NCBI GenBank assembly: GCA_013812245.1
Contig: JACCTS010000245.1
Location: forward strand, 1 to 41,639
Direction of reading: 5' to 3'
DNA: 41,639 nt
From: Rubrobacter sp.
GTDB taxonomy: Bacteria; Actinomycetota; Rubrobacteria; Rubrobacterales; Rubrobacteraceae
Position 1 is the stretch's first letter. Each line of letters opens with the position of its first letter. Positions 4,019-20,268 of this stretch are shown here, one piece after another. The translations under genes and the position numbers were made by a program. Under the pieces are notes generated by a model. It did not search any database, had not been told where the DNA came from, and was given only the letters and a program-made list of their open reading frames with translations.

Positions 4019-4495
4019 ATGGCTGATCTAACGGCAAACAGGGAGCACACCGAGGGCCGCCTACACTTCATTCAGCAATTGCGGAATCCCTACGCAACTC
4101 TGCTCTTGAGGCTGCACCGTGGTTTGTCCGACGCTGGTTACGCTGACAGCTTCCCTTCCTGGGGGACCAACATCTTCTACTGCCTCAGGGATGGAGGGCT
4201 TCGTCTGGTCGAGCTGGCCGAGCGGACCCACACTACCAAGCAGGCGATGGGTTACACGGTGAGCCGGCTCGAAGAAGCAGGTTACGTAGAACGAGTGGCG
4301 GACCCCAAGGATGGTAGGGCCAAGATCATTCGTATCACGCAACGAGGGTGGGAGATGCGCCGGCTTGCGGAAGAGATCATAGGGGAAGTGGAGGAGGAGT
4401 GCGTCCGTCGCCTCGGCGAGGAGCGGATGAGGCAGTTCGAGGAGCTGATTAAGGAAGTAAGTACCGTGGTTGCAGAGGCCACAGAGCGTGAGTGA
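4019..4495 (+). CDS. MarR-family transcriptional regulator
   Basis: The 158-residue product has the MarR layout. N-terminal dimerisation helices (HFIQQLRNPYATLLLRLHRGL) are followed by a winged helix-turn-helix at about residues 60-115: LAERTHTTKQAMGYTVSRLEEAGYV carries the recognition helix and VADPKDGRAKIIRIT the wing, with the usual D-x-R-D/G pattern. C-terminal helices close the dimer. ATG 4019 has GGGAGG 11 bases upstream. Family members are mostly repressors released by phenolic or other small ligands or by oxidation. No Cys redox switch stands out. The target is probably itself and the divergent SnoaL-like gene, through the palindrome at 3955-3969. The six-gene redox operon lies 10 kb away and could be a second target, but nothing shows this. 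Confidence 0.88.
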   Translation: MADLTANREHTEGRLHFIQQLRNPYATLLLRLHRGLSDAGYADSFPSWGTNIFYCLRDGGLRLVELAERTHTTKQAMGYTVSRLEEAGYVERVADPKDGRAKIIRITQRGWEMRRLAEEIIGEVEEECVRRLGEERMRQFEELIKEVSTVVAEATERE

Positions 4496-12521: not shown

Positions 12522-14018
<1,497 letters not shown>

Positions 14019-14044
14019 TTAAAGGTCGGTTCTCACTGGCAGGC

Positions 14045-14073
14045 AAGCTACCAGAGCAGACCGGGGCCGTCAA
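14045..14073 (-). promoter_or_regulatory. Promoter of the pyr operon
   Basis: TTGACG, a 17-bp spacer and TAGCTT on the minus strand form a near-consensus promoter 36 bases upstream of GTG 14009. The remainder of the 262-base divergent gap up to 14271 shows only short palindromes (GTACTTTGGTAC near 14102, GATGCATC near 14172) and no convincing promoter for the rightward operon. Confidence 0.65.
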
Positions 14074-14271
14074 GCCGTCGGCGGCCATCTTCCGGCGCCC
14101 CGTACTTTGGTACAGGTCAAGAACCGTACGCCCGCACGATGCACGAACCTCCTTTCCATCGCAACATTCGGATGCATCGAACCGGCAGACGAAAAGAGAG
14201 GTTAGTAGATTGGTGGATTTCCGCAGGCTACGGTGCAGACGGTTTCTGTTTCAGATCGGAGGCAACCCGAG

Positions 14272-14634
14272 ATGAACCCGAGTTCCTACTCACAAGAACA
14301 ACAGCGAATCTATCGCATAGACAAGTTCATCGTGTCTGAACCCGCCCGTGCCGAGTTCCTCGAAAGGGTGAAACACACCCACGAACTCCTGCGAATCCTT
14401 CCCGGCTTCATCGAGGATTCCATACTCGAAAAGATGGATGGACCCGGCGACTTCAACCTCGTCACCATCGTCGTGTGGTGGGACGCCGAAGCCATCGCAG
14501 CGGCAAAAGAGGCCGTGACGGCCAGGCATCAAGAAACAGGGTTCGATCCGCGCGAAACGTTCGATAGGCTGGGAGTTCAGGCTGACCTCGTGAACTACAG
14601 GCAGATAGATGCATGGAAGTACAGCAATGTATAG
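14272..14634 (+). CDS. Antibiotic biosynthesis monooxygenase (ABM) domain protein
   Basis: The 120-residue product fits the small dimeric ABM ferredoxin-like fold: strand YRIDKFIVSEPARAEFLERV, helix THELLRILPGFIEDSILEK, strand FNLVTIVVWWDAEAIAAAKEAVTARH, then FDPRETFDRLGVQADLVNYRQI. Relatives oxidise quinols or aromatic polyketides without cofactors, or degrade haem; no haem-specific residues stand out. The start ATG 14272 follows GGAGG by 9 bases. The ORF-track start 13 codons earlier is less likely. It opens a six-gene operon and overlaps the FMN reductase by 8 bases, so an oxygenase and reductase pairing on a quinone or aromatic substrate is a fair inference. Confidence 0.75.
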   Translation: MNPSSYSQEQQRIYRIDKFIVSEPARAEFLERVKHTHELLRILPGFIEDSILEKMDGPGDFNLVTIVVWWDAEAIAAAKEAVTARHQETGFDPRETFDRLGVQADLVNYRQIDAWKYSNV

Positions 14635-15229
14635 GCCAGTCATCGGCATCATAATCAGCACCACACGGGAAGGCAGGTTCGGCGATAAACCGGCGCGCTG
14701 GATCTTCGATATCGCGTCGGAACGGAGCGACCTCGTCTTCGAAATGGTGGACCTGCGGGATTGTCCGCTGCCATTGTTCGAGGAGACGACGGGTCCCTCC
14801 CACGAGCCACCGGAGAACGAGATGGCGCTGCGCTGGGGCGAGAAGATAGCCGGGTTCGATGAGTATATCTTCGTCACGGCCGAGTACAATCACTCCATTC
14901 CGGGCGCTCTGAAGAACGCGCTCGACCACGCATACCCCGAGTTCAACAGGAAACCGGCCGCGTTCGTGGGCTACGGCGGGGTCGGTGGGGCGCGTGCCGT
15001 GGAGCAGTTGCGTTTGATCTGCATCGAGCTCCAGATGGCCCCGACCCGCACAGCCGTACACATAGGCATGGAGCCTGTACTCGGGGTGCGGCGTGAGGGC
15101 AAGAACCTCTCAGACTACGATTTACTCAACGAGAGCGCCGGTGCGACCCTCGACGAACTCGCCTGGTGGACTCATGCCCTGAAAGCCGGCCGAGAAGCGG
15201 CTGTGGAGTCCGTCGGGGCGGAGCGATGA
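14627..15229 (+). CDS. NADPH-dependent FMN reductase / quinone reductase
   Basis: The 200-residue flavodoxin-like protein belongs to the NADPH-dependent FMN reductase family, which reduces FMN, quinones or azo dyes. Visible motifs are GIIISTTREGRFGDKPARW (phosphate loop), VDLRDCPLPLFEE and the signature FVTAEYNHSIPGALKNALDHAY for the flavin ring, with GYGGVGGARAVEQLR near the dimer interface. ATG 14627 follows GGAAG; the ORF-track start 6 codons earlier is less likely. It overlaps the ABM gene by 8 bases and the MFS gene by 4 (ATGA). It is cytosolic. It could feed reduced flavin or hydroquinone to its neighbours. Confidence 0.85.
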   Translation: MYRPVIGIIISTTREGRFGDKPARWIFDIASERSDLVFEMVDLRDCPLPLFEETTGPSHEPPENEMALRWGEKIAGFDEYIFVTAEYNHSIPGALKNALDHAYPEFNRKPAAFVGYGGVGGARAVEQLRLICIELQMAPTRTAVHIGMEPVLGVRREGKNLSDYDLLNESAGATLDELAWWTHALKAGREAAVESVGAER

Positions 15230-16719
15230 GCACCGGGGGCGAAGCCATGAGCACGAGAGCACCTGCATCCACCCGGCTCTTTCTGGCGGTGGCCGCATCA
15301 GCGGTGTTCATCTCGGTGCTCACGGCCACCATGATTAACGTCTTGATCCCACTGATAAGGTTGCAGTTCGGCGCCTCGCCGGCGCAGGTGGGATGGGTGA
15401 TAACGGGCTACTCGCTCGCCTACGCCGTCGGGGTTCCGCTCTACGGACGCATCTCGGACTTTTTCGGGGTGAGGCGCGTCTTCGCCGTGGGGCTTACGGG
15501 GTTCGCGGCGGGCGGCCTCATCTGCGCCTTCGCCCCGAGCCTCACGGTACTCGTCCTGGGACGCATCGTGCAGGGAATCGGGGGAGCAGCAATCCCGGCG
15601 CTCGCGATAGTCTCAGTGACGAAGGTCTTGCCGGCTGGAGAGCGAGGCGCGGGCATGGGGGTTATCGGATCTAGCCTGGGCGCTGCTGCTGCGGTCGGCC
15701 CCGTTGCCGGAGGTATCGTCGGGCAATTCCTCGGCTGGCGTGCCCTGTTCGTGGGCACGCTCGTCTTGACGTTGATCCTGATCCCGTTCGCCCGGCGCGT
15801 GCTGCCCAACGGTGGCTCTCAAGATGAGCGCCGCTTCGACCTGATCGGTGGCCTACTGCTCGGCCTGGGAGCCGGCCTCTTCCTCTTCGGCGTTACACAG
15901 GGACAGGGTGCAGGCTTCGCCTCATCCTCCTCATGGGGTTGCTTCCTGGGAGCTGCGCTCGCGGCATCGCTCTTCGTCTGGCGTATAAGCGGAGCCTCGC
16001 ATCCCTTCGTCTCGCCTGTACTATTCAGGAACCGGGCGTATGTGGCGGCAATCCTCGTCGGTTTCTTCGCCATGCTGGCCAACCTCTCGGCGCTCATCTT
16101 CACCCCACTACTCCTCGTCGAGGTGAACGGGCTCTCCGCGGCGGCAGCCGGGCTGGCCCTGACGCCTGGGGCGGTGGCGCTGGCCCTTCTCTCGCCTTTG
16201 AGCGGCCGTCTCTCCGACCGCATCGGCGTGAAAACTCCCATCCTGGCTGGGCTTACGCCCATGACTCTTTCGGCGCTCTTCATGTCCACCCTCGCCGCAG
16301 GAGCGTCCCCGTTCATGGTCTCGGCGGGCATGCTGGGGTTGACCGTCGGCATGTCCTTCGTTCAATCTCCGCTCGCCAATGCGGCCGCAGGCGCGCTCCC
16401 GGATGCGGAGGTCGGGGGCGGTATGGGTATCTTCCAGGGTCTGATCTTCCTCGGAGGCGGTACCGGCCCGGCGCTCCTCGGGGCATTCCTCGCGTCCCGA
16501 GAAGAGGCCGATGGTGGGGCCATCAACCCCCTGTACGTTCTCAACGCCGCCCCGTTTTCCGATGCCTTCCTGGCGATGTTTTTCGTCCTGATCATCGCCC
16601 TCTTAGCCGCGCTCGGGCTGCGGAGCGTCGCCGAAAAGAACGATCCGGATCTCCGTTCAACGCCTATGGATAACACAGAACCAGAAGAGATCGAAGTGGA
16701 AGGGAGTAAGCAGCGATGA
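15226..16719 (+). CDS. MFS drug exporter, DHA2 (14-TM) type
   Basis: The 497-residue membrane protein has the DHA2 drug:H+ antiporter pattern. TM1 is LAVAASAVFISVLTATMINVLIPLI. Motif A between TM2 and TM3 is GRISDFFGVRRVF. Motif C in TM5 is GSSLGAAAAVGPVAGGIVG. A second motif-A-like loop, GRLSDRIGVKTPI, marks the later half. About fourteen hydrophobic segments can be counted, and the C-terminus is an acidic cytoplasmic tail (EPEEIEVEGSKQR). The start ATG 15226 overlaps the reductase stop as ATGA. Substrates of such pumps include quinones, dyes and antibiotics. The surrounding redox genes suggest it exports the compound they modify, which is inferred. Confidence 0.9.
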   Translation: MSTGGEAMSTRAPASTRLFLAVAASAVFISVLTATMINVLIPLIRLQFGASPAQVGWVITGYSLAYAVGVPLYGRISDFFGVRRVFAVGLTGFAAGGLICAFAPSLTVLVLGRIVQGIGGAAIPALAIVSVTKVLPAGERGAGMGVIGSSLGAAAAVGPVAGGIVGQFLGWRALFVGTLVLTLILIPFARRVLPNGGSQDERRFDLIGGLLLGLGAGLFLFGVTQGQGAGFASSSSWGCFLGAALAASLFVWRISGASHPFVSPVLFRNRAYVAAILVGFFAMLANLSALIFTPLLLVEVNGLSAAAAGLALTPGAVALALLSPLSGRLSDRIGVKTPILAGLTPMTLSALFMSTLAAGASPFMVSAGMLGLTVGMSFVQSPLANAAAGALPDAEVGGGMGIFQGLIFLGGGTGPALLGAFLASREEADGGAINPLYVLNAAPFSDAFLAMFFVLIIALLAALGLRSVAEKNDPDLRSTPMDNTEPEEIEVEGSKQR

Positions 16720-18119
16720 AAGCGGTGTGGTTAGAGAAGTTCGGCGGTCCCGAATCGCTCGTGGCGGGAGAAGCGCCGGACCCCGTGGCAGAGCCGGGAC
16801 AGGCTTTGATCGAGGTGTCCTTCGCCAACATTACCTTCGTGGAGACCCAGTTCCGCGCGAGTGGTTTCGGGCCTTTCGAGGCGAAGCTGCCCATGATCCC
16901 GGGCAACGGCGTCGGCGGCGAGGTCGTGTCGGTCGGCTCCGGAGCCGACGACGGTCTGATCGACAGGCGGGTGGTCGCCATCACCGGCGGATCTGGTGGA
17001 TATGCCGGCCTGGTGACGGTTGACGCAGGCGGGCTCATCGAGGTGCCGGAAGGTCTGGCGCTCGACAGCGCGACGGCCCTGCTCGCCGACGGGCGCACGG
17101 CGAAGATGTTGATCCAGGCTTCCTCGTTGCGCGAAGGAGAACGAGTGCTGGTCGAGGCGGCGGCGGGCAGCGTTGGCTCCCTGCTAGTCCAGCTCGCTCG
17201 GGCGGCCGGGGCCACGGTCATCGCGGCGGTTGGAGGGGCGCGCAAGGTCGAACTCGCGCGAGAATTGGGCGCCGACATGACGGTAGATTACCGGGAGCCG
17301 GGGTGGACGGATCGGATTCGTGAGGCTACCGGAGGCGTGGACGTCGTCTTTGACGGTGTCGGCGGCGACATCGCCAGGTCCGCGTTCGGGCTGCTCGACT
17401 GCGGCGGGCGGATGATCAGCTTCGGAATGTCGAGCGGCGAGTGGGCCGGCATCCCGGATGAGGCAGCCGCGGATCGCGGTGTGACGAAGGTTGGCCTGTC
17501 GCGTCCAACGCCGGAGGAAGCCCGCGCGTTCACCGAGGACGCGCTATCCGACGCAGCGGACGGCCGGTTGCGCCCGGTGATCGGACAAACCTTCCCGCTG
17601 GAGCGGGCCGCCGAAGCGCACGCCGCCATCGAGTCTCGCGCCACCGTGGGTAAAACGCTCCTCGTGGCGCGACGGCCTGCGCCTTTCACGCGGGCGGAGC
17701 TCAGCTACCTGGAGTCTCAGACGTTGGGAAGGCTGGCGACGGCGCAGCCGAACGGGACACTCCAGGTCAGCCCGGTGGGGTTCGCCTACAACACCGACAC
17801 CGCGACCATAGACATCCGCGGGTACAACATGGCGTCCAGCCGGAAGTTCCGCAACGTCGCAGACAACGGCCGGGCGGCGTTCATCGTGGACGACATAGCA
17901 TCGCGCCAGCCGTGGCGTGTTCGGTGCCTCGAAATTCGCGGACATGCGGAGTCTATAGATCCGTCAGCCAGCGGAGGAGATCGAGACGGCGTATTCATCC
18001 GCGTCCACCCGGAGAGAATCATCGGCTTCGGGATAGACGATCCGGATCAAGAAGTCCACAAGCTCACCCCGAACACCCGCGACGCCACCGAACCTCCAGA
18101 CAGGCTCGCAAGGAAATGA
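16716..18119 (+). CDS. Fusion: zinc-independent quinone oxidoreductase (MDR) + PPOX-class F420-type oxidoreductase
   Basis: Residues 1 to about 320 are a medium-chain dehydrogenase/quinone oxidoreductase. They show MKAVWLEKFGGPESL, the catalytic-domain start of the family, then ERVLVEAAAGSVGSLLVQLAR with the NADPH Rossmann loop, GADMTVDYREPGW, GGVDVVFDGVGG and the normal family end VGKTLLVARR; no zinc ligands are seen. Residues 325 to 455 are a split-barrel PPOX domain: FTRAELSYLESQTLGRLAT, VSPVGFAYNTDTATIDIRGYN, SSRKFRNVADNGRAAFIVDD, RCLEIRGHAES and a C-terminal RVHPERIIGFGID, as in actinobacterial F420-dependent reductases. The frame is continuous across the joint, with no stop or start pile-up. 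ATG 16716 overlaps the exporter stop (ATGA). One chain would therefore hold an NADPH-using and a probable F420- or flavin-using site. Confidence 0.88.
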   Translation: MKAVWLEKFGGPESLVAGEAPDPVAEPGQALIEVSFANITFVETQFRASGFGPFEAKLPMIPGNGVGGEVVSVGSGADDGLIDRRVVAITGGSGGYAGLVTVDAGGLIEVPEGLALDSATALLADGRTAKMLIQASSLREGERVLVEAAAGSVGSLLVQLARAAGATVIAAVGGARKVELARELGADMTVDYREPGWTDRIREATGGVDVVFDGVGGDIARSAFGLLDCGGRMISFGMSSGEWAGIPDEAAADRGVTKVGLSRPTPEEARAFTEDALSDAADGRLRPVIGQTFPLERAAEAHAAIESRATVGKTLLVARRPAPFTRAELSYLESQTLGRLATAQPNGTLQVSPVGFAYNTDTATIDIRGYNMASSRKFRNVADNGRAAFIVDDIASRQPWRVRCLEIRGHAESIDPSASGGDRDGVFIRVHPERIIGFGIDDPDQEVHKLTPNTRDATEPPDRLARK

Positions 18120-18182
18120 ATGGCGAAAATCACCTTAACCAGGCCCGCACGATCTTCAGAGATAATCGGGGAGGCGATTCAG

Positions 18183-19061
18183 ATGAGCACGTTGGATCAA
18201 CGCAACAATCCCAACGCCGAAGGAGCGAGTGGTGAGTGGGAGATAGAGAAACTTGACGTGGACGCTTACCTCGCTCGCGTGGGGTATGATGGAGACCTGC
18301 GCGCCGATGTAGACACACTATTTGCTCTGCACCGGGCGCACGCTGCCCGTATCCCGTTCGAGAACCTTGACGTCGTGCTGGGACGCGGCATCTCTCTCGA
18401 CATCAAGAAGATTCAGGACAAGCTGGTCCGCCACGAACGCGGCGGGTATTGTTTCGAGCACAACCTGCTCTTCGCCGCGCTTCTGGAGCGGATCGGATTC
18501 AGGGTGAGGCGGCTCGCCGCCCGCGTGCAGCCAGCCCGCACGCACATGCTGCTCGTCGTCGAGGCCGATGGAAGGGAATGGCTCGCCGATGTCGGTTTCG
18601 GGGCGACGCTCCTGGAGCCGATCCCGTTCGAAGACGGCGCCGTGTCGCGCCAGGGTGGCTGGACCTATGGTCTCGCAAAACACGGTGACGGCTCGTGGCG
18701 GCTGCGCTCTCCCGATGCGGACGGCTGGACAGACCTCTACACCTTCACCGAGGAGCCACAGCGTTTCATTGACTACGTGGTCTACAACCACTACACGGCG
18801 ACCCATCCAGACTCACCGTTCGTGAGCCAGCCGAGGGCCGTAAGGGTCAAACCCGACGTCCGGTATACGCTTGGTGGAAGCACGTTTATCTCCAAGTTTC
18901 CCGAGGGGTCCTTGGAGAAGCGTGATCTCCCCAAAGACGAAGCGATAGAGGCGCTCCGCGACACCTTCGGTATCGTCCTCGCTCCGGAAGATGAGGCGCG
19001 ACTGCGGGAGATCTTCGCTATGGAGAAAGCAGATATCCCTGATAAAACAAGACGAAGCTGA
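18183..19061 (+). CDS. nat: Arylamine N-acetyltransferase
   Basis: NAT moves acetyl from acetyl-CoA to arylamines, hydrazines and arylhydroxylamines; in mycobacteria it inactivates isoniazid and affects steroid catabolism. The catalytic triad is visible: Cys in RHERGGYCFEHN, His in RTHMLLVV and Asp in WLADVGFG. The family opening DVDAYLARVGYDGD and RIPFENLDV are also present. I chose ATG 18183 because GGGGAGG lies 8 bases upstream. The ORF-track start at 18120, right after the previous stop, adds 21 non-family residues. Its 3' end overlaps the next MFS frame by about 70 bases. Clustering with reductases that can make amines from nitro or quinone-imine groups suggests a sequential modification, as an inference. 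Confidence 0.9.
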   Translation: MSTLDQRNNPNAEGASGEWEIEKLDVDAYLARVGYDGDLRADVDTLFALHRAHAARIPFENLDVVLGRGISLDIKKIQDKLVRHERGGYCFEHNLLFAALLERIGFRVRRLAARVQPARTHMLLVVEADGREWLADVGFGATLLEPIPFEDGAVSRQGGWTYGLAKHGDGSWRLRSPDADGWTDLYTFTEEPQRFIDYVVYNHYTATHPDSPFVSQPRAVRVKPDVRYTLGGSTFISKFPEGSLEKRDLPKDEAIEALRDTFGIVLAPEDEARLREIFAMEKADIPDKTRRS

Positions 19062-20259
19062 GATCAGACGCCGCACGCTCGCCGTGCTGGCGGTCGCTAC
19101 AGGGATCGGCAGCGTGGGTCTCGCTGCCGGTGGGACCGCAGGAGCGCTACTCGGCGCCAACCTGACCGGCACGGAGGCCGCAGCGGGTCTTCCGCTCGGG
19201 CTGCTTGTCGTGGGACAGGCAATCGCGGCGCTGGTCGTCTCCCGGCGAACGCGCCATGCGGGGCGTGGCCGGAGCTTGATCCTCGGCTACGTACTGGGCG
19301 CGCTCGGGGCCGCGCTGGTGATCTTCGCAGCCGTGAGCAGCAATTTCGTTACGCTTCTGGCAGGCTCCATCGTGCTTGGGGCGGGCAACGCCGCCATCTT
19401 TCTCACGCGCTACGCGGCTGGTGAGTTGGGTGGTGAGGCCGCGCGTGGGCGCTCGCTCGGGGTTGTGTTGTTCGCCACGGCTTTCGGCGCGATCCTGAGC
19501 CCGAACCTGCTGGGTCCGGGCGGGGAAGTGGCAAGGATGCTCGGCCTCCCGCCGCTGACGGGGCTCTACCTGCTCGCCATCCTGTCCTTCGTGATCTCCG
19601 CCATCCTCCTCGCCGCCATCTCCTACCCCGGCGTTCCGTACCTCGGACAAGGGGCCGCGCTACTCGGACCCCGCGAGATGACCAGGTCCACGCCACAACA
19701 GGCGATTTCGAGCCGCGGCATCTGGCCAGCGCGGGTTGCCCTCGTGGTTCTGGGGGCGACGAACCTCGTCATGGTGTCGGTGATGGCCGTCGCGCCCGTT
19801 CACCTGAGCACCCACGGCCACAGCCTCGACCTGGTTGGGATTGTGATCGGTGTTCACGTCGCTGGTATGTTCGTGCCTTCGCCGGTGTCGGGCCGGATCG
19901 CGGATCGAATCGGCGGCGTGCCCATCGCCGCGCTGGGTATCCTGCTTCTCGTCGTGACCGGCATCGCGGGAGCGCTCGTGAATCAGGATAGCGTGGCCTG
20001 GATCATCGTGGTCCTGGCGGTACTCGGCATCGGATGGAACCTCGGGATCGTGGGCGGGAGCATGCTACTCGCCGCTTCAGTACCGCCGGATCTGCGTCCG
20101 CGCACAGAGGGTCTCGGCGAGGTGGCGATGGGCGTCGCGGCGGGCGTGGGAGCCCCTATCGCGGGGATGGTCGTCTCTATCGGCAGCCTGTCAACCCTCC
20201 TGCTGTCCGGAGCAGGCGTTGCGGCGCTTACCTTCGTGTTCCTTCGGCCCAAAGGGTGA
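18991..20259 (+). CDS. MFS transporter, 12-TM type
   Basis: The 422-residue frame encodes an integral membrane protein with about twelve hydrophobic segments. Family marks include GSIVLGAGNAAIFLTRYAAGELGGEAARGRSLGVVLF around TM4-5, and a motif-A-like GRIADRIGGVPIAALG after the central loop. The first 28 residues (MRRDCGRSSLWRKQ and on) overlap the end of the acetyltransferase and look non-family. The real start may be nearer the hydrophobic TM1 at RRRTLAVLAVATGIG, but no ATG, GTG or TTG with a good ribosome-binding site is evident there, so I keep 18991. It is the last gene of the operon and converges on rluD with a 9-base gap and no clear terminator. The substrate is unknown. Confidence 0.8.
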   Translation: MRRDCGRSSLWRKQISLIKQDEAEIRRRTLAVLAVATGIGSVGLAAGGTAGALLGANLTGTEAAAGLPLGLLVVGQAIAALVVSRRTRHAGRGRSLILGYVLGALGAALVIFAAVSSNFVTLLAGSIVLGAGNAAIFLTRYAAGELGGEAARGRSLGVVLFATAFGAILSPNLLGPGGEVARMLGLPPLTGLYLLAILSFVISAILLAAISYPGVPYLGQGAALLGPREMTRSTPQQAISSRGIWPARVALVVLGATNLVMVSVMAVAPVHLSTHGHSLDLVGIVIGVHVAGMFVPSPVSGRIADRIGGVPIAALGILLLVVTGIAGALVNQDSVAWIIVVLAVLGIGWNLGIVGGSMLLAASVPPDLRPRTEGLGEVAMGVAAGVGAPIAGMVVSIGSLSTLLLSGAGVAALTFVFLRPKG

Positions 20260-20268
20260 ACGAGCGGA

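Follow-up and report, generated by a model that had tools for sequence, protein, structure and literature searches.

A single gene of Rubrobacter sp. encodes a zinc-independent MDR oxidoreductase and a PPOX-type split barrel, and with a probability of about one half we regard its product as a genuine bifunctional detoxification reductase that goes back to one fusion event and combines NADPH-dependent MDR chemistry with F420H2-dependent PPOX chemistry, either in parallel or sequentially. The gene lies in the window, by which we mean the whole stretch of 41,639 nucleotides that was analysed, and the DNA and the ORF reading show it as one uninterrupted frame of 467 codons on the plus strand (positions 16716-18119, ATG to TGA, without internal stop), with the ATG of the next gene directly 3' of the TGA. 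It is thus confirmed that two complete enzyme domains are encoded end to end by one gene (Table 1).

Table 1. Parts of the fusion gene and its neighbours in the window
Feature	Position	Strand	Basis or remark
MDR / quinone-oxidoreductase half, residues 1-317	16716..17666	+	Pfam ADH_N, ADH_zinc_N, ADH_zinc_N_2; Foldseek to 1qor
Joint / linker, residues 318-323, ARRPAP (TQRPTP in G001)	17667..17684	+	Alignment with separate MDR and PPOX
PPOX split-barrel core, residues 324-440	17685..18035	+	TIGR04023
C-terminal tail, residues 441-467	18036..18116	+	Alignments; common to G001 and the separate PPOX of G032
Arylamine N-acetyltransferase (NAT)	18120..19061	+	Pfam Acetyltransf_2, E 2.8e-65
MFS drug-efflux-type transporter	15166..16719	+	Closest to FexA-type models; 4-base overlap with the fusion start
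NADPH-dependent FMN reductase family protein	14609..15229	+	Pfam FMN_red, E 2.7e-32
ABM-fold monooxygenase-like protein	14233..14634	+	Pfam ABM, 25.4 bits versus cut-off 23.1
Second MFS transporter	18991..20259	+	Pfam MFS_1, E 1.3e-25

The reading frame is conserved through the joint

Could an assembly artefact or a frameshift have merged two genes? The window's genome (G000) is a fragmented draft of 623 contigs that is 86% complete, which gives this idea some ground, but a second genome of this genus, G001 (a draft that is 90% complete), was assembled separately and carries the same fusion, with 76% identity over residues 1-467, an open frame and an identical position of the joint (ARRPAPFTRAEL in the window's fusion versus TQRPTPFTRAEL in G001). 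The substitutions are codon-like, as they fall mainly on third codon positions over the whole length, including the joint. In the codon comparison of the two genes, dN was 0.146 and dS 1.006 overall. The corresponding pairs were 0.156 and 1.063 (MDR half), 0.071 and 0.817 (joint, residues 300-340) and 0.116 and 1.018 (PPOX core); the dS values were obtained by the Nei-Gojobori method and are indicative only, as a dS of about 1 is near saturation. The low dN relative to dS, also at the joint, shows purifying selection on the reading frame through the joint. An assembly join or frameshift at this point is excluded by the stop-free ORF with the same joint in G001, and there is virtually no chance that an artefact created the gene.

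Both halves belong to known families

The MDR half matches ADH_N (residues 27-112; 29.8 bits versus a gathering score of 23.5), ADH_zinc_N (153-271; 86.4 versus 31.8) and ADH_zinc_N_2 (184-316), all over the Pfam gathering cut-offs. A dinucleotide-binding loop, AAAGSVG, is present at residues 148-154, and K177 and Y192 are found at positions that we take to be the NADPH-phosphate contacts of E. coli QOR. Zinc-ligand cysteines are absent, and the only cysteine of this half is replaced in G001. The nearest NCBIfam models are PIG3/QOR, all below cut-off, including the PIG3 quinone oxidoreductase subfamily model TIGR02824 (173.1 bits, cut-off 296.8). The Foldseek matches of the whole predicted model are quinone oxidoreductases, including the NADPH-bound structures 4rvu and 1qor, with an E-value of 6e-30 and a TM score of 0.89 by target length for the latter, the E. 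coli QOR. The nearest relatives of this half are separate proteins, with 76% identity in G079 and 63% in Amycolatopsis.

The PPOX half matches TIGR04023 (PPOX class F420-dependent oxidoreductase) with 149.9 bits versus a cut-off of 85.6 and over all 115 model positions (1-115), and PNPOx_N is recognized over the Pfam gathering cut-off at residues 330-417. All residues that are invariant in 26 TIGR04023 members are kept. Again, the nearest relatives are separate proteins, 71% identical in an alignment with the protein of G032, which belongs to the same family as the window's genome, and 61% identical in Amycolatopsis. Only about six residues lie between the MDR end, as given by the G079 protein ('VGKTLLEVR'), and the PPOX start, as given by the G032 protein ('MVKPSSPFTKGELDYL').

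The preliminary description had recognized two complete domains in a single frame, namely a zinc-independent MDR part that reaches its normal C-terminus and an F420-type PPOX domain. This is borne out in all points by the Pfam and TIGR04023 matches within the open ORF, by the unconserved single cysteine of the MDR half, by the separate G079 relative that ends at just this position, and by the full-length TIGR04023 match. Both halves are ordinary members of known families, and only their union is unusual and narrowly distributed.

AlphaFold predicts that both domains fold confidently, with a mean pLDDT of 94 and a pTM of 0.82 for the full fusion modelled as a single chain, confidence values of about 88-92 across the joint, and low values only in the final five residues. 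The input was a 48-row alignment in which the last ~10 residues of many MDR rows were misaligned, which AlphaFold tolerated; a second alignment with trimmed MDR rows was worse and was not used.

Which cofactor would the PPOX domain use?

Modelled alone, the PPOX domain reached a pLDDT of 89.8, and its top Foldseek matches were FAD-binding MSMEG_5243 (6eci), followed by others that included F420-bound MSMEG_6526 (5jv4), Rv2074 (5jab) and the heme-binding protein 5bnc. As these proteins bind FAD, F420 or heme, the cofactor cannot be read off the fold. F420 is nevertheless favoured, for three reasons: the family, the presence of cofD in the window's genome, which makes F420 use plausible, and the co-occurrence of the two genes. 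In a sample of 297 genomes of the phylum, cofD was present in 38 of the 43 genomes with TIGR04023 over cut-off versus 125 of the 254 without (Fisher p 7e-7), an association that is confounded by ancestry and was not corrected for it. F420H2 chemistry is thus more likely than flavin chemistry for the PPOX domain.

If the PPOX domain bound FMN or FAD instead, the same fusion could be a self-contained NADPH-flavin reductase in which MDR-bound NADPH feeds the flavin. FMN, FAD and heme binders all occur among the PPOX split barrels, the top structural matches bind FAD, an FMN reductase gene is part of the same operon, and no cofD match was obtained in the fusion-bearing G001 draft. On the other hand, the strong match is to a family that is named F420-dependent, and the presence of this family tracks cofD, which the host has, so that we consider a flavin enzyme unlikely.

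A further idea is cofactor recycling, in which the MDR domain hands the hydride of NADPH to F420 and the PPOX domain spends the reduced F420 on its substrate, and in which a separate F420 reductase would be needless. No npdG/Fno match over cut-off was obtained in the window's genome, which agrees with this idea, but that genome is only 86% complete, and we know of no F420 activity of the MDR fold. Recycling is therefore highly unlikely.

The fusion lies in a variable block of putative detoxification genes

From 14233 to 20259, six genes of the same orientation follow one another, each overlapping or abutting the next, in the order ABM-like protein, FMN reductase, MFS transporter, fusion, NAT and second MFS transporter, and this row looks like a small detoxification operon. 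A sigma-70-type promoter was not matched in the region. The best NCBIfam match of the upstream MFS protein is FexA with 449 bits, far under the cut-off of 900, and it is thus a distant relative and not the resistance gene itself. Fusion and NAT are adjacent in the window as well as in G001, with an MFS gene upstream in both, and the two NAT proteins are 72% identical.

The fusion is part of a block of about 6 kb (14010-20268) between pyrR and rluD. In nine other genomes of the family that were inspected, including the congener G002, which has no insert, the genes for RluD and PyrR lie close together; PyrR was not seen within the 1.5-kb flank in G021, G032 and G036. In G001, NAT, fusion and MFS gene follow rluD in a block that is related to that of the window but different. 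As the block between rluD and pyrR is present in some genomes and absent from others, the fusion belongs to a variable segment. Elsewhere in the window, a MarR-family regulator gene is found at 4019-4495 (Pfam MarR_2), and an ORF at 199-717 looks by eye like the C-terminal portion of a tyrosine recombinase/integrase.

Distribution and origin

Among 40 genomes of the class, which comprise one family, the fusion occurs only in G000 and G001, and in a sample of 396 Actinomycetota genomes (the phylum of G310, the genome with the Amycolatopsis locus L009) the G001 copy is the sole other full-length match. Within the class and this sample, the architecture search across genomes that had been proposed at the outset thus yielded one further case, and the architecture is not common there; a join or an internal stop at the joint, about which the preliminary description had cautioned, was looked for and not found, and the fusion is kept in G001. 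The TIGR04023 loci inspected in the 297-genome phylum sample included no further case of MDR and TIGR04023 in one ORF. PPOX ORFs of 240-473 aa were checked as candidates for further fusions at 12 loci, none of which has an MDR in the same ORF. None of 359 plasmid records with a match covers 80% of the fusion protein, a plasmid search with a 301-base query spanning the joint matched the MDR side only, and a contig scan of the genomes gave separate relatives only. In Nonomuraea, which gave the best DNA match at the joint, the MDR gene stands alone and PPOX is absent nearby. We did not find the architecture or the family described in the literature.

The two fusions group as sisters in the maximum-likelihood tree of each half (support 100/99 for MDR and 97/92 for PPOX), and a single fusion event therefore suffices to explain them. 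The sequences are consistent with two genes having been joined end to end once in this genus.

Separate genes for both enzyme types can also be found together. A 3.1-kb contig of G223 (C97) carries, all in one orientation, genes for an MDR, for two glyoxalase-family proteins and for a TIGR04023 PPOX. The MDR encoded there (L108:2209-2628) is 79-92% identical to that of the window (79% at the N-terminus), with residues 98-279 missing in frame, which is either a real deletion or an assembly collapse. On contig C82 of G001 (L040:706-5300), a TIGR04023 gene adjoins a diverged MDR gene whose product is 33% identical; a gene for a 1017-aa protein that appears transposase-like by eye lies downstream of this pair. 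The two clusters weakly suggest that MDR and TIGR04023 enzymes serve the same processes.

Proposed function

The N-terminal MDR domain would use NADPH to reduce quinones or enones, and the C-terminal TIGR04023 domain would use F420H2 to reduce related electrophilic aromatic compounds. For FDORs of M. smegmatis, F420H2-driven reduction of quinones, coumarins and dyes has been described (PMC5449967), and F420H2-dependent reduction by FDORs has been tied to reductive detoxification (PMC8498797). Acting in parallel or successively, the two activities could represent the reductive step of a detoxification operon that comprises reductases, NAT and MFS efflux, and the tether may mainly serve to hold both activities together at a fixed ratio. 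While we infer both cofactors, the substrates and the cooperation of the domains, a bifunctional detoxification reductase is the most economical reading because of the NAT and efflux genes alongside and the FDOR precedents.

The domains could also be independent passengers, joined in frame by a neutral and harmless event between neighbouring operon genes and not cooperating at all. The near absence of a linker, the ordinary features kept in both halves, the clusters with separate MDR and PPOX genes and the limitation to two genomes would all suit such an origin, and the occurrence in only two genomes also implies that the benefit of the fusion may be slight. However, the fusion has stayed intact and was never re-split over a dS of about 1, which is near saturation, and mere passengers therefore appear unlikely. 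The preliminary description had envisaged that the fusion couples NADPH and deazaflavin or flavin chemistry on one substrate, which is possible but unsupported. We found no record of NADPH/F420 coupling in one chain, and it is very unlikely that the single chain connects F420 chemistry with the NADPH pool, be it on one substrate or by a hydride hand-over between the domains.

If the halves cooperate as in the proposed detoxification reductase, the fusion hints at both the functional partner and the probable type of substrate of TIGR04023 proteins. Such proteins are common among actinobacteria, and we found no substrates on record for them. The fusion would then also be a natural two-domain NADPH/F420 reductase that could be tried in biocatalysis. 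If they do not cooperate, it is a minor lineage-specific fusion. In either case, it is a true, conserved and rare combination of domains whose families are already known.

Comparison with known systems

The MDR half shares with QOR / zeta-crystallin (E. coli 1qor, mycobacterial 4rvs/4rvu) the complete fold, the NADPH-type loop and the lack of cysteine zinc sites, but known MDR quinone oxidoreductases end at about 320-335 aa, whereas the chain described here continues into a second enzyme. Similarly, the PPOX half is a member of the FDOR-B-like split barrels of TIGR04023 and shares 60% identity with a free-standing, annotated protein of this family from a Nocardia plasmid. Such proteins are usually free-standing, and most of those listed have frames of about 120-190 aa, whereas here the domain forms the C-terminal part of a fusion.

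The same genome encodes a 353-aa protein with a PPOX domain ahead of a nitroreductase domain (contig C234, L007:1492-2553), about 13 kb from cofD on that contig, and long frames with a PPOX match below cut-off are found repeatedly in the family. This protein likewise joins a PPOX split barrel to another redox enzyme, but it differs in the N-terminal position of the PPOX domain, in the nitroreductase partner and in its TIGR04023 score of 47.1, which is below cut-off. A precedent for gene fusion in F420 biology is FbiB, in which CofE is fused to the nitroreductase-family domain FbiE (PMC8498797); unlike the fusion described here, FbiB is a biosynthetic enzyme, and its domains are unrelated to those of the MDR-PPOX protein.
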